Below, in pieces: positions 7,612 through 16,282 of a stretch of DNA of 64,000 bases; the stretch's first letter is position 1; each line of letters opens with the position of its first letter. This DNA is from Rhizobium sp. Q54 (GTDB taxonomy: Bacteria; Pseudomonadota; Alphaproteobacteria; Rhizobiales; Aestuariivirgaceae). The notes under the pieces are model-generated. The model did not search any database. It was not told the origin of the DNA and saw only the letters and a list, made by a program, of their open reading frames with translations. A program made the translations under genes and the position numbers. Location: the NCBI GenBank assembly GCA_945889445.1, contig CAMDBX010000014.1:1-64000 (forward strand), given 5' to 3'.

Positions 7612-9591
7612 TTAGGCGGCGGCGCGCCCGTCGCGATGCGACGGGGCAACCGGCCGCAGGCGGCCATCCTCTGGCAATGGCTCATGCGCGGCCCAGCTCT
7701 CGAGCGCGGCGGCATAGAGATCAGCAGCAATGCTCTCACCCTCGCGACCCTCGACAAGACCCAGGCCGACCTCCTCATAGACCGGAAGATTGGTGAGATC
7801 GGGAACGGGAAGATCGCCCGTGCGGAACTCGTCCCACATCCGGTCGTAGAGGCCTTCGAGACTCTTCACCAGCAGCGGCACGTCGAACAGCACGCAGTGG
7901 TCCCGCCCGGCGCGTAGTCGACGGCGCAACTCCGCCGCGGCACTCGGCACGGCGGCGATGGCGATGGCGCGCGCGACATAGTCATCAAGATTGGTGCAGA
8001 CGAGGTCCGGCAGGCCGGCATTCTTTACCAGTCCGGCGCAGACGCGCGCCGCGAAGCCCTGGCCTTCCAGCGTCAGCACCGGCGTTCCCATCGACATTGC
8101 GTCAGAAGCAGTGGTGTGTGCGCCATAGGGGAAGGTATCGAGGAACAGGTCAGCCAGAGCATAACGCGCCAGGTGCTGTGGATTGGGCCGCTTCGGCGCG
8201 AAGCAGATTCGCTCCGGCGCAACTCCGGCGGCCGCGGCCAGCAGGCGCAGCCGCTGGTTGGTCTCGGGTCCGGCATCGAGAAGCCACAACACGCTGCCCT
8301 CGGTTGTGGCGAGAATCTTCATCCAGGCGCCAAACAGCTGTGGCGTGAGTTTCTGCGCACCGTTGAGGCAGCAGAAGACGAAACCCTTTTCGGGCAGGCC
8401 TTCGGCATTGCGTTGCGGCGGCTCCGGCGCGATCACACGCTTGCGGTCATTGGGCTGGTAGCAGGGAAGCCGAAGCACGCGCTCGGTGAAGAGGCGCTCA
8501 TGGCCTTCCGGTACCACATGAGGGTCGGCAATGACATAGTGATGATAGGGCGTTCCCATGGTGCCCGGAAAGCCAAACCAGTTGGCGGCGATGGGGGCGG
8601 GGCGGCGGGCGAAGACCGCCGTGCGGGCATCACGCGTGTAGCCATTCACGTCCACCAGAATGTCGATCCCGTCGGCGGCAATGCGCGCTGCCGCGGCATC
8701 GTCCGAAAGGCCCGTGATGTCAGTCCAGTGATCGACGGCGGAGCGGATGCGCTCACGCGTACCGTCATCGCGCGGGATGCCGCAGTAATAGGCGTGGATA
8801 TCGAAGCGGCCGCGGTCATGGAGTTCCATCACCTCACAGAGTCCGAAGCCAACCGCATGTTCGCGCAGGTCGGAGGAAACGTAGCCAATCCTGAGGCGTT
8901 TGGGGCGTTCGACCCGGCGTGCTGCGTGGTCGCGCACATGCGCAGGCCGCGCGATCAACTGCCGCGCATAGCTTGCATTGCGCGCAAGCTGGAACACCGG
9001 ATCGTCGAACATCACCGCCGCGGACAGCGGCGAAACATGGGCGAGAAGCTGGCGCGCCTCCACCCCGTCCCAGCCCTGCACCACCGGCCACTTGCATTGC
9101 CGCTGGCGCAGCGCGATCCAGTGCTGGATGGCCTGCGACTGGCCCGGCGAGAGATCGATGGCCTGGCGCAGCGCATCCTCGGCCGGCGCGTCGGCATGGT
9201 TGAATTCCAGCACCCGCCCCAGCTGGTGCAGCGCCATCACCTTGTGGCGCAATGCCGGACCATTGAGGGCGGGAAGCCGATTGACGAGGGCGAGCCACTG
9301 GCTCACCGCCGCCCCGGTCTGACCGAGATCCTCCAGCGCGCGACCGAGATTGATATAGGAGGGGTGGAACTCCGGATCTATCCGCAGCGCGTCGCGCAAG
9401 GCGTTGATGGCGGCAAAGGCATCACCGCTGCGCTGGGCCACCACCGCCATGTTGAAGTGGGCAGCCGCGAGTTGCGGGTCATCCGGATTGAGCGCGATCC
9501 AGCGCTTGTAGAGCGCTGCGGCAGACGCCGCTCCTTCGGTTTTCTCAAGGCTTTCGGCGTCACGAAACAGCGCGGCGATGGCGGATGACAA
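7612..9591 (-). CDS. TPR-containing O-linked N-acetylglucosamine transferase-like protein (GT41/SPINDLY-type)
   Basis: TPR N-terminus; 'RIGYVSSDLREHAVGFGL', 'FCCLNGAQKLTPQLFGAWMKIL', 'FLDTFPYGAHTTASDAMSMGTPVLTLEGQGFAARV' match GT41 catalytic blocks. Confidence 0.88.
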   Translation of the reverse strand: MSSAIAALFRDAESLEKTEGAASAAALYKRWIALNPDDPQLAAAHFNMAVVAQRSGDAFAAINALRDALRIDPEFHPSYINLGRALEDLGQTGAAVSQWLALVNRLPALNGPALRHKVMALHQLGRVLEFNHADAPAEDALRQAIDLSPGQSQAIQHWIALRQRQCKWPVVQGWDGVEARQLLAHVSPLSAAVMFDDPVFQLARNASYARQLIARPAHVRDHAARRVERPKRLRIGYVSSDLREHAVGFGLCEVMELHDRGRFDIHAYYCGIPRDDGTRERIRSAVDHWTDITGLSDDAAAARIAADGIDILVDVNGYTRDARTAVFARRPAPIAANWFGFPGTMGTPYHHYVIADPHVVPEGHERLFTERVLRLPCYQPNDRKRVIAPEPPQRNAEGLPEKGFVFCCLNGAQKLTPQLFGAWMKILATTEGSVLWLLDAGPETNQRLRLLAAAAGVAPERICFAPKRPNPQHLARYALADLFLDTFPYGAHTTASDAMSMGTPVLTLEGQGFAARVCAGLVKNAGLPDLVCTNLDDYVARAIAIAAVPSAAAELRRRLRAGRDHCVLFDVPLLVKSLEGLYDRMWDEFRTGDLPVPDLTNLPVYEEVGLGLVEGREGESIAADLYAAALESWAAHEPLPEDGRLRPVAPSHRDGRAAA

Positions 9592-9609
9592 GGCTCGTGG
9601 TACTCCGGC

Positions 9610-12471
9610 TTAGGCGTTGGAGGCGATGATGAGGGCGGTGAGCTGATCGGAGTTCATCAGCCCGATCTGCGAGGTGGTAAAGGCATTGGCCTGAGTGCTC
9701 GAGAGAGCGGCGATCTGGTCGGTCGTGATGCCGGCGATGGCCGAGACCGCGAGCGACGGCAAGCCGGTGGTTTCGTTGAGCGCCGCGAAGTTGGTGGTGC
9801 TGAGGGCCGCCACCTGGGCAGAGGTGAGGGCGCCAGCCTGCGTGGCGTTCAGGCCGGAGAAGATCGTGGTGTCGAGACTGTCCAGCGCCAAGGGCGTGAT
9901 GGCGCGGAACTGGGCGGCGTCGAGCGTGCCGATCTGCGTGGTGGTGAAGTTGTTCAGCGCCGTGGAACCGAGGCCGCCGATCTGCGCAGTCGACAGCGAT
10001 GCGGCGGTGAGGAGGTTCAGCTGCGAGGTGTCCATCGCGTTGAGCTGGCTCGTGGTGAAGCCGCGCAGCTGGGTGGAGTTCAGCAGGCCGATCTGCGTAT
10101 CGGAGAAATCCGATATCTCGGTGGTGGTGAGGCCAGCAAGCTGGGTGGCCGTCACCGCGCCGAGTTGCGTGGTGCTCCAGGCCTGGATATCGGTGGAGCC
10201 AAGGGCCGACAGGCTGCCCGCCGAAAGCGCGCCGATCTGGCCGGCCGAGAGCGCCTGCACCTGCGTGCTGGACAGGTTGCCCGCCGCCGTGGTGTCGAGG
10301 CCCGCCACCTGCTGGGTGGAGAGCGAGGCGACATCGAGCGCCTGCAGGTAGCTGGTCGACAGGGCGCTCAGCTGCGTGGCGTTCAGGCCGCGCAACTGGG
10401 TGGAGCTGAAGTCGGCAAGCTGCTCGGTGGCGAAATCCTCGATTTCGGTGGCGGCGAGTCCCACGAACTGCTGCGAGGTGATGGCGCCCAGCTGCGTCGT
10501 GGACCAACCCTGGAGTTCGGTCGAGGACAGCGCCGCAAGGGTGGTGGCCGAGAGCACGGCGATCTGCGCGGTGGTCAAACCCTGCGCCTGGGTGGTGGAG
10601 AGCGCGTCGATTGCCGTGGCGTTCATGGCACGGACCTGGGCGGTGGCGAGATCAGCGACGTTCAACGCATTGAGCTGCGTCGTACCCAGCGCGTTGAGCT
10701 GGCTGGAGGTGAAGCCACGAACCTGCGTCGACGTCAGCTGGCCCAGCTGCGTGTCCGAGAAGTTGGCAATCGCCGTGGTGGTGAGCTGCGACAGCTGGCG
10801 GGTGGTGATGGCGCCAAGCTGGGTGGTGCTCCAGGCCTGCAGATCGGCGCTGTCAATGGCGGCAAGCCCCGTCGCCGTCATGGCCGTGACCTGGGTGACG
10901 GTGAACGCCCGGGCCTGCGTCGATGTGAGGTTGTCGACTGCGGTGGAGCTGAGACCTGCAACCTGCGTGCCGGACAGGCTGGTGACGTCAAGCGCATTCA
11001 ACTGGCTGGTGGCGAGGCCGTTGAGCTGGGTGGAGGTGAGGCCGCGCAGCTGCGAGGAGGTCATCTGGCCCAGCTGCGTGTCGGAGAAGTCGGCAAGGCC
11101 GGTGGTGGTGAGGCCGGCCAGCTGCTGGGAGGTGACGGCGCCGAGCTGTGTCGTCGACCAGCCCTGGACATCGGTCGAGGACAAGGCTTCGAGGCCGGCC
11201 GCCGAGAGGGCGCCGATCTGCAGCGTGCCCAGCGCCTGCGCCTGGGTGTCCGACAGCGCATCAATGGCGGTCGAGCTCATGTTGCGGATCTGCGAAACCG
11301 AGAGGTCAGTGACGTTCAATGCGTTGAGCTGTGTGGTGGCGAGGTTGTTGAGCTGGGTGGAGGTGAGGCCCTTCACCTGGGTGCCGGAGAACTGGCCCAG
11401 CTGGGTGTCCGAGAAGTCAGCCAGCCCCGTGGTGGTGAGGCCGGCCAGCTGCTGGGAGGTGATGGCACCCAGCTGCGTCGTCGACCAGCCCTGCACCTCG
11501 GTGGAGGACAGCGCGTCGAGGCCGGTTGCCGACATGGCGGCGATCTGGGCAGTGGTCAATGCCTGCGCCTGGGTGTCGGTCAGCGCGTCGATAGCCGTTG
11601 CGTTCATGCCGCGGACCTGCGCAGCCGACAGGCTGGCGACGTCGATGGCATTGAGTTGCGTAGTGGCCAGGCTGTTGAGCTGCAGCGTGGTCAGGCCACG
11701 CAGCTGCGTCGAGCTGAGCTGGCCCAGCTGCGTGTCCGAGAAGTCGGCGAGTGCGGTGGTGGTCAGCCCACCCAGCTGCTGGGCGGTGATGGCGCCGAGC
11801 TGGGTCGTCGACCAGCCCTGCACTTCCGTCGAGCTCAGGGCCTCGAGGCCGCCAGCCGAGAGGACCGCGATCTGCGACACGGTGAGGGCCTGCGCCTGTG
11901 TGGTCGACAGCGCGTCAACCGCCGTCGCGTTCATGCCGCGAAGCTGCGTGGCGGAAAGATCGGCAATGTTCAGGGCATTGAGCTGCGTGGTTGCGAGAAC
12001 GTTGAGCTGGCTCGTGGTGAGACCCCGCACCTGCGTGGAGGTAAGCTGGCCCAGCTGCGTGTCCGAGAAGTCGGCGAGTGCTGTGGTTGTCAGCCCCGCA
12101 AGCTGGCGCGAGGTGATTGCGCCCAGCTGGGTGGTGTTCCAGGCCTGGATATCGGTCGACTCGAGGGCCTCCACCGCATAGGCCTGGAGCAGGCCGATCT
12201 GACCGGTGGTGAGAGCGGCGGCCTGCGTGTCCGCGAGATTGGTGATGGTCGCCGCGATCAGCGACTTGATGGCTGTGGAGGAGATCGCCTGTACCTGATT
12301 GGTGTCGAGGGTTGTCAGGTCGGTTGTTTCCATCGCATTGATCTGCGAGGCGGTGAGGGCTGAGACCTGCGTGGTGCTGAGTGCTGCGACATCGGTCGTC
12401 GACAGGGCCCTGATGGCCGTGGTGCTCAGGGTGGCAATCTGCCGGTTGGTCAGCGACGAAACGATCGACAT
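9610..12471 (-). CDS. Ser/Thr/Gln-rich octapeptide-repeat protein (953 aa), unknown function
   Basis: Repeating [hydrophobic]-[ST]-x-T-Q-[LIV]-x-[AG]; no obvious N-terminal signal peptide; no Cys seen; stop lies 18 bp before the GT41 gene. Confidence 0.9.
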   Translation of the reverse strand: MSIVSSLTNRQIATLSTTAIRALSTTDVAALSTTQVSALTASQINAMETTDLTTLDTNQVQAISSTAIKSLIAATITNLADTQAAALTTGQIGLLQAYAVEALESTDIQAWNTTQLGAITSRQLAGLTTTALADFSDTQLGQLTSTQVRGLTTSQLNVLATTQLNALNIADLSATQLRGMNATAVDALSTTQAQALTVSQIAVLSAGGLEALSSTEVQGWSTTQLGAITAQQLGGLTTTALADFSDTQLGQLSSTQLRGLTTLQLNSLATTQLNAIDVASLSAAQVRGMNATAIDALTDTQAQALTTAQIAAMSATGLDALSSTEVQGWSTTQLGAITSQQLAGLTTTGLADFSDTQLGQFSGTQVKGLTSTQLNNLATTQLNALNVTDLSVSQIRNMSSTAIDALSDTQAQALGTLQIGALSAAGLEALSSTDVQGWSTTQLGAVTSQQLAGLTTTGLADFSDTQLGQMTSSQLRGLTSTQLNGLATSQLNALDVTSLSGTQVAGLSSTAVDNLTSTQARAFTVTQVTAMTATGLAAIDSADLQAWSTTQLGAITTRQLSQLTTTAIANFSDTQLGQLTSTQVRGFTSSQLNALGTTQLNALNVADLATAQVRAMNATAIDALSTTQAQGLTTAQIAVLSATTLAALSSTELQGWSTTQLGAITSQQFVGLAATEIEDFATEQLADFSSTQLRGLNATQLSALSTSYLQALDVASLSTQQVAGLDTTAAGNLSSTQVQALSAGQIGALSAGSLSALGSTDIQAWSTTQLGAVTATQLAGLTTTEISDFSDTQIGLLNSTQLRGFTTSQLNAMDTSQLNLLTAASLSTAQIGGLGSTALNNFTTTQIGTLDAAQFRAITPLALDSLDTTIFSGLNATQAGALTSAQVAALSTTNFAALNETTGLPSLAVSAIAGITTDQIAALSSTQANAFTTSQIGLMNSDQLTALIIASNA
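9850..12180 (-). repeat. In-frame 327-bp (109-aa) tandem super-repeat, about 7 copies, made of 8-aa units
   Basis: Trp codons (CCA on +) at 12139, 11812, 11485, 11158, 10831, 10504, 10177, each 327 bp apart; a second anchor (DTQLGQ codons) at 12052, 11725, 11398, 11071, 10744, 10417, 10090, also 327 bp apart. Array ends approximate. Confidence 0.92.

Positions 12472-12692: not shown

Positions 12693-16282
<3,590 letters not shown>

Follow-up and report, generated by a model that had tools for sequence, protein, structure and literature searches.

A GT41 glycosyltransferase and a long, Ser/Thr-rich solenoid protein of the ALTTAQ family are co-inherited and co-localized across Pseudomonadota. 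The pair described here lies in a 64,000-nucleotide stretch of a contig (CAMDBX010000014.1) from the genome of Rhizobium sp. Q54, a member of the Aestuariivirgaceae; we refer to this whole stretch as the window. We postulate that the two genes form a dedicated protein O-glycosylation module in which the repeat protein is the acceptor. We regard this reading as likely, with the caveat that the acceptor, the glycosylation, the sugar, and export are all inferred and that there is no biochemical evidence for them.

The gene pair and its two proteins

Both genes are on the reverse strand, the repeat gene first, and are separated by an operon-like gap of 18 bp (positions 9592 to 9609). The repeat gene (9610 to 12471) has an ATG start and is read from 12471 to 9610 without an internal stop, encoding a 953-aa protein (P0001) identified by ORF calling, Pfam, and AlphaFold2. 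The glycosyltransferase gene (7612 to 9591) has a TTG start and encodes a 659-aa protein (P0002) identified by ORF calling, Pfam, and structure alignment. Co-transcription is likely because of the 18-bp spacing, on which the inference rests; a consensus scan of the gene pair detected no promoter or terminator. A gyrB-like gene (12693 to 15128, reverse strand) lies beside the pair, and the same locus is present in Aestuariivirga litoralis and related MAGs. A genome-wide search of the source genome (4.9 Mb in 262 contigs) found one ALTTAQ gene, one GT41 gene, and no further copies of either. An HlyB exporter of the linked type was not found in the source genome, and UDP-glucuronate decarboxylase (UXS) was present only as a fragment at a contig edge. 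We interpret the source locus as a module reduced to its two core genes, with donor and exporter not identified there.

P0001 matched the Pfam family PF20080 (ALTTAQ_rpt) at an E value of 2.5e-119 (389 bits against a cut-off of 26.4) in 26 stretches and is built almost wholly of octads that follow the pattern L-[ST]-[ST]-[ST]-Q-[ILV]-x-A. The hydrophobic residues show an eight-residue period (correlation at lag 8, r = 0.80). When the sequence is compared with itself, 28% of residues are identical at a shift of 8 aa and 53% at a shift of 109 aa, compared to 11% in shuffled sequences (1000 shuffles, maximum 14%). The peak at 109 aa agrees with a higher-order tandem array revealed by repeat analysis (10468 to 12171, reverse strand), which comprises 5.2 copies of a 327-bp unit; each 109-aa unit consists of 13 octads plus one 5-residue unit. 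Ser and Thr account for 270 of the 953 residues, occupying position 3 in 63% of the octads and position 4 in 71%, while Cys is absent and Pro occurs only twice. RTX nonapeptides (GGxGxDxUx) were not detected, there being no GG.G.D in P0001 or in ten relatives.

AlphaFold2, run on four orthologues (mean pLDDT, 90.3; pTM, 0.50), placed a short helix in nearly every octad; the global curvature predicted for a solenoid of this length should not be trusted. In the octad L15-S16-T17-T18-A19-I20-R21-A22, for example, the helix spans residues 17 to 22. Octad position 2 is the N-cap in the model and positions 3 and 4 begin the helix; from this secondary structure, positions 3 and 4 are predicted to be exposed to solvent. 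Foldseek searches with the whole model returned loose matches to alpha-solenoids with low TM-scores, mesothelin entries being highest in probability. A solved octad protein, HeliScrew4 (PDB 9zem), was absent from the Foldseek matches listed for the whole model and matched the sequence of P0001 at an E value of 1.3e-7. The predicted fold, a chain of mini-helices, is well supported.

Some ALTTAQ proteins differ in their ends or integrity. Those of rhizobia and Shinella (L119, L121, L122, L124, L125, L128, and L129) share a short C-terminal motif resembling SYLAV or SYLTV, which could possibly be an export signal, unlike the proteins of the Aestuariivirga group, which end in IASNA/S. In Pseudoroseomonas cervicalis, the ALTTAQ region (L130:14364-19451) is split into several short, overlapping or abutting ORFs, possibly through frameshift decay or through sequencing error in the repeats. 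Genome G632, which lacks GT41, encodes a 4,039-aa frame (L069, G632:C37) in which ALTTAQ-like octads, 15 by motif count, are confined to a short stretch.

P0002 combines TPRs, matched by Pfam at approximately residues 1 to 160 (9111 to 9591, reverse strand), with a catalytic part at residues 222 to 596 (7804 to 8928, reverse strand) that was delimited by Pfam and structure alignment. A role of the TPRs in holding the solenoid is inferred. The match to PF13844 falls in two stretches (E value, 3e-65; 220.9 bits against a cut-off of 25), and the closest solved structures are human OGT (E value, 1.7e-83) and XcOGT (3.5e-80). His245 in REHAVGF (codon at 8857 to 8859, reverse strand) aligns with the conserved OGT His of GNHPTSH, and Lys414 in AQKLTP (codon at 8350 to 8352, reverse strand) aligns with the conserved OGT Lys of LYKIDP. 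Both residues are invariant across six relatives. HMW1C structures matched far more weakly than OGT (E value, 1e-9), and the NCBIfam NGT profile scored 38.7 bits, short of its cut-off of 1000. The assignment of P0002 to the OGT-type GT41 class is well supported by sequence; sugar transfer to Ser/Thr is inferred.

The initial annotation, made from the sequence alone, had described a Ser/Thr-rich octad repeat protein of about 950 aa, encoded first and 18 bp from a same-strand gene for a protein with TPRs and GT41 blocks, and had aligned the His and Lys noted above with residues of human OGT. All of these claims held. Its statement that co-transcription was very likely held in the weaker form given above.

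GT41 domains were also observed fused in series. In family f239, a 3,781-aa open frame with several GT41 modules adjoins ALTTAQ genes (L085, G760:C92:27095-35212), and a 2,108-aa frame with three modules occurs in G594 (L107, G594:C1:4682113-4689281). Genome-wide, GT41 stretches numbered 49 in G712 and 45 in G757.

Linkage across genomes and plasmids

We ran the genome-wide co-occurrence test that the initial annotation had proposed on 298 Hyphomicrobiales genomes, and the association passed it. ALTTAQ was found in 20 of these genomes and close relatives of P0002 (at least 550 bits, the next best scoring 380) in 13. All 13 genomes with a close GT41 encoded ALTTAQ, compared to 7 of the 285 others (Fisher p 4e-18); GT41s outside this clade showed no association with ALTTAQ in the same draw (p 0.31). 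The two genes were directly adjacent in 12 genomes (G000, G454, G519, G570, G592, G398, G587, G451, G521, G594, G650, and G666) spanning four families of the order, and adjacency also occurs in other orders and classes. In the thirteenth (G681), the clade GT41 is alone on its own 3-kb contig. Where ALTTAQ occurred without adjacency, five genomes had few repeats and no GT41 (G505, G534, G582, G632, and G649), and one had a single weak ALTTAQ match with its GT41 located elsewhere (G641). G647 is an exception, with a long array at a contig end and no clade GT41. The initial annotation would have been refuted had homologous repeat genes usually lacked a linked GT41; this was not the case, since most genomes of the order with long ALTTAQ arrays have an adjacent clade GT41.

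The draw across the class gave the same picture. Homologues of P0002 scored at least 622 bits in three genomes (G203, G270, and G175) and then 382, so that over both draws the scores are bimodal (at least 550 bits versus at most 382). Every genome in the upper mode carries ALTTAQ, and no clade GT41 was found in an ALTTAQ-free genome in either draw. Of nine congeners of the window genome, five species carry the complete pair and the other four lack both genes (p 0.008). A GT41 homologue of some kind (E value of 1e-30 or better) is present in 123 of 386 alphaproteobacterial genomes, and a GT41 within 10 kb would be expected in 0.4 to 2.6% of genomes; the observed frequency was 12 of 15 strong cases (binomial <1e-16, ignoring shared ancestry). 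Some ALTTAQ genes have no GT41 nearby (L043, L046, L075, L077, and L119 to L129), so the repeat can in some cases do without the enzyme. A control genome, that of Caulobacter vibrioides, scored for both ALTTAQ and GT41, a result that carries no information on whether the two genes adjoin.

In a maximum likelihood tree of 44 GT41 sequences, 22 linked enzymes and the contig-end copy formed one clade (support, 100/100) with no unlinked member, within which L042:1812, L044:2334, and L079 make up a branch apart from the main one. A separate linked clade, also supported at 100/100, was found in family f239, where most of the proteins have about 1,200 to 1,270 aa. On the tree, the linked label required 3 changes, compared to 13.7 for shuffled labels. 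The association is thus either ancient or of multiple origin, and both alternatives argue for function.

Searches of plasmid records by tblastn detected GT41 in 92 and ALTTAQ in 58. Near full-length GT41s with 47 to 51% identity lie near ALTTAQ genes on named plasmids of Rhizobium, Pseudorhizobium, Shinella, Niveispirillum, and Pseudoroseomonas, and more distant pairs occur on plasmid A of Cereibacter sphaeroides 2.4.1, in Rhodovastum, and on two Pseudomonas plasmids. On plasmid A of C. sphaeroides, the ALTTAQ gene is DQL45_RS23715 and the GT41 gene is DQL45_RS20570. The repeat genes on plasmids are annotated as hypothetical, “ICE nucleation,” or “heme utilization” proteins.

Type I secretion genes adjoin the pair in six lineages. 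An ABC exporter and adaptor were found in Niveispirillum (L042), family f239 (L044 and L080 to L084), Cereibacter (L116), and Pseudoroseomonas (L130), and were accompanied by TolC in G980 (L079) and Pseudomonas (L117 and L133). Nucleotide-sugar genes, either UGD/UXS or glf, lie beside GT41 in twelve loci. UXS, assigned by its match to the human enzyme 2b69 (E value, 2e-124), occurs with or without UDP-glucose dehydrogenase (UGD; assigned by its match to 4a7p) in L041, L061, L064, L068, L073, and L130; L061 (G570) belongs to the window's own genus. The UDP-galactopyranose mutase gene (glf) is found just after GT41 in L037, L115, L132, L134, L137, and L138, and in three of these six loci an unnamed protein of about 417 aa is encoded between the two. 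Both kinds of neighboring gene in sister loci are consistent with a protein that is glycosylated and exported.

Linked and unlinked repeat proteins tend to differ at the octad positions predicted to be exposed. At positions 3/4, the percentages of Ser/Thr are 63/71 in the window protein and 96/82, 76/88, and 86/91 in the linked L042, L064, and L080, compared to 28/32, 28/33, 27/23, and 23/54 in the unlinked L043, L046, L075, and L077; in unlinked proteins, these positions tend to be filled by Ala, Pro, or charged residues. The linked L042 and the unlinked L043 come from one genome (G175). In the closest orthologues (82 to 86% identity), 97% of the window protein's Ser/Thr at positions 3 and 4 are kept as Ser/Thr. 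Retention at position 4 was lower, 67%, in an unlinked pair with equal overall identity (p 9e-7); at position 3, the difference in retention between the window orthologues and the unlinked pair was not significant. Over all proteins, median Ser/Thr at position 3 was 75% in linked and 49% in unlinked proteins (p 6e-4, uncorrected for shared ancestry). Rhizobial octads mostly have Ala or Asp at position 4, which would leave position 3 as the only site in that group.

As a simple predictor of a linked GT41, the Ser/Thr content of the repeats held only in part: L121 to L125 (75 to 79% at position 3) and L040 (63/63) are rich yet unlinked, and L138 is linked yet poor (12%). On a Rhizobium rhizoryzae plasmid (L135), three ALTTAQ ORFs lie near one GT41; the adjacent ORF has 83% Ser/Thr at position 3, and the farther two have 49% and 66%.

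Proposed mechanism and rival explanations

We propose that the repeat protein would be made in the cytoplasm, where the GT41 would hold the solenoid through its TPRs and add sugar to many Ser/Thr at the starts of the mini-helices, at octad positions 3 and 4 and perhaps at the N-cap position 2. The decorated rod would then be exported, in many relatives through the linked type I secretion system, and may serve extracellularly as an adhesin or coat covered with sugar. The last step is a guess, made by analogy with HMW1/HMW1C and EtpA/EtpC (PMC3983070) and with FlmG and flagellin (PMC7591256). The initial annotation had named the repeat protein as the dedicated acceptor, which the clade-specific linkage and the neighboring genes support; sugar attachment is still an inference, as is the dense, sugar-decorated filament or surface layer that it envisaged.

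Candidate donors are inferred from neighboring genes only. Where UGD and/or UXS adjoin the pair, as they do in one congener of the window genome, the donor may be UDP-xylose; in rhizobia, where glf adjoins it, the product may be a glycan that contains galactofuranose. A bolder reading is that the system is a bacterial counterpart of a proteoglycan core, in which the GT41 would O-xylosylate many Ser/Thr of an exported helical-screw rod or, in rhizobia, build a galactofuranose-containing glycan on them. GT41 protein O-glycosylation is not known to use a donor of the UDP-xylose or galactofuranose type, and we hold this reading only tentatively, judging it less likely than not.

Under an alternative hypothesis, the GT41 would have a different substrate, for instance flagellin or a set of surface proteins, and adjacency would reflect a common surface role or regulation. 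Flagellar or flagellin genes do lie near the pair in Rhodovastum and Pseudorhizobium, and Caulobacter has a cytoplasmic O-glycosyltransferase, FlmG, that acts on flagellins (PMC7591256). However, flagellar genes are near few loci, whereas ALTTAQ is the constant partner; the clade GT41 was never found without ALTTAQ in two large draws, and the Ser/Thr positions of that partner are constrained. We consider this alternative unlikely. We give even less weight to the possibility that the GT41 merely chaperones or binds the solenoid, which is aggregation-prone and would be held by the TPRs, with catalysis secondary or lost. The TPRs and the genetic tie between the two genes are consistent with such a role, but relatives show no variation at His245, at Lys414, or over much of the donor site, and many GT41 copies are adjoined by nucleotide-sugar genes, making it very unlikely.

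HMW1C-like N-glycosylation, in which the enzyme would glucosylate Asn in the repeats, is suggested by the fact that HMW1C enzymes are GT41s that often adjoin their adhesin (PMC3983070). P0002, however, bears TPRs and is far nearer OGT (1.7e-83) than HMW1C structures (1e-9), and the repeated, conserved residues are Ser/Thr rather than Asn. We judge this explanation highly improbable and rejected it on the NGT profile score (38.7 bits against 1000). Finally, the pairing could reflect chance or a general clustering of common alphaproteobacterial GT41 genes near large low-complexity genes, given that GT41 homologues occur in 123 of 386 genomes. The frequency of strong linkage (12 of 15 against 0.4 to 2.6% expected, kinship ignored), the lack of association for GT41s outside the clade (p 0.31), and the repetition of linkage across several orders, in another class, and in another GT41 clade leave almost no room for it.

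Relation to known systems

The repeat family (PF20080) and the enzyme family (PF13844) are each already cataloged, and a GT41 that serves one adjoining exported protein is known from HMW1C, which modifies Asn. Substrates are known for few of the abundant bacterial OGT homologues. The initial annotation knew of no described system of this form, and none was found in the open-access literature searched, which leaves out most subscription journals: a clade of OGT-like, TPR-bearing GT41s tied to an alpha-helical octad solenoid and accompanied by UGD/UXS or glf and by type I secretion genes is undescribed there. That literature yielded nothing relevant on ALTTAQ, HeliScrew, GT41 combined with type I secretion, or short-helix repeats of octapeptides, and we found no record of a function or of glycosylation for the PF20080 family.

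The association described here ties a whole GT41 clade to one acceptor family, proposed on the evidence above, and gene context offers candidate donors. A regular acceptor whose every octad presents a defined site would be useful for studies of OGT specificity and for engineering. The module would also be the first function offered for the ALTTAQ family, and the version of the locus on plasmid A of Cereibacter (Rhodobacter) sphaeroides 2.4.1 makes it directly testable.

Among GT41 enzymes, human OGT, XcOGT, and the OGT of Thermobaculum terrenum (PMC4683255) share with P0002 the fold family, the layout of TPRs and catalytic part, and the conserved His and Lys. OGT and its bacterial homologues have many intracellular targets or unknown substrates, whereas the linked clade is tied to one repeat protein. 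HMW1/HMW1C and EtpA/EtpC resemble the pair in that a cytoplasmic GT41 gene adjoins that of the large exported protein it modifies with simple sugars (PMC3983070). HMW1C, however, is TPR-free and transfers hexose onto Asn of a two-partner-secreted, beta-helical adhesin; the window pair has a TPR-bearing, OGT-like enzyme and an alpha-helical octad solenoid as partner, with type I export genes where these are linked. FlmG is likewise alphaproteobacterial and cytoplasmic, acts before export, and gains specificity from an N-terminal substrate-binding part (PMC7591256), but its substrate is flagellin and its sugar pseudaminic acid, in contrast, judged from gene neighborhoods alone, to the ALTTAQ partner and the UGD/UXS or glf sugar genes of the linked loci examined. 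On the acceptor side, HeliScrew4 (9zem) belongs to the same PF20080 octad family, and mesothelin-like superhelices of short helices also resemble the model. HeliScrew4 has mostly Pro and Glu/Asp at octad positions 3 and 4, where the GT41-linked proteins have Ser/Thr.
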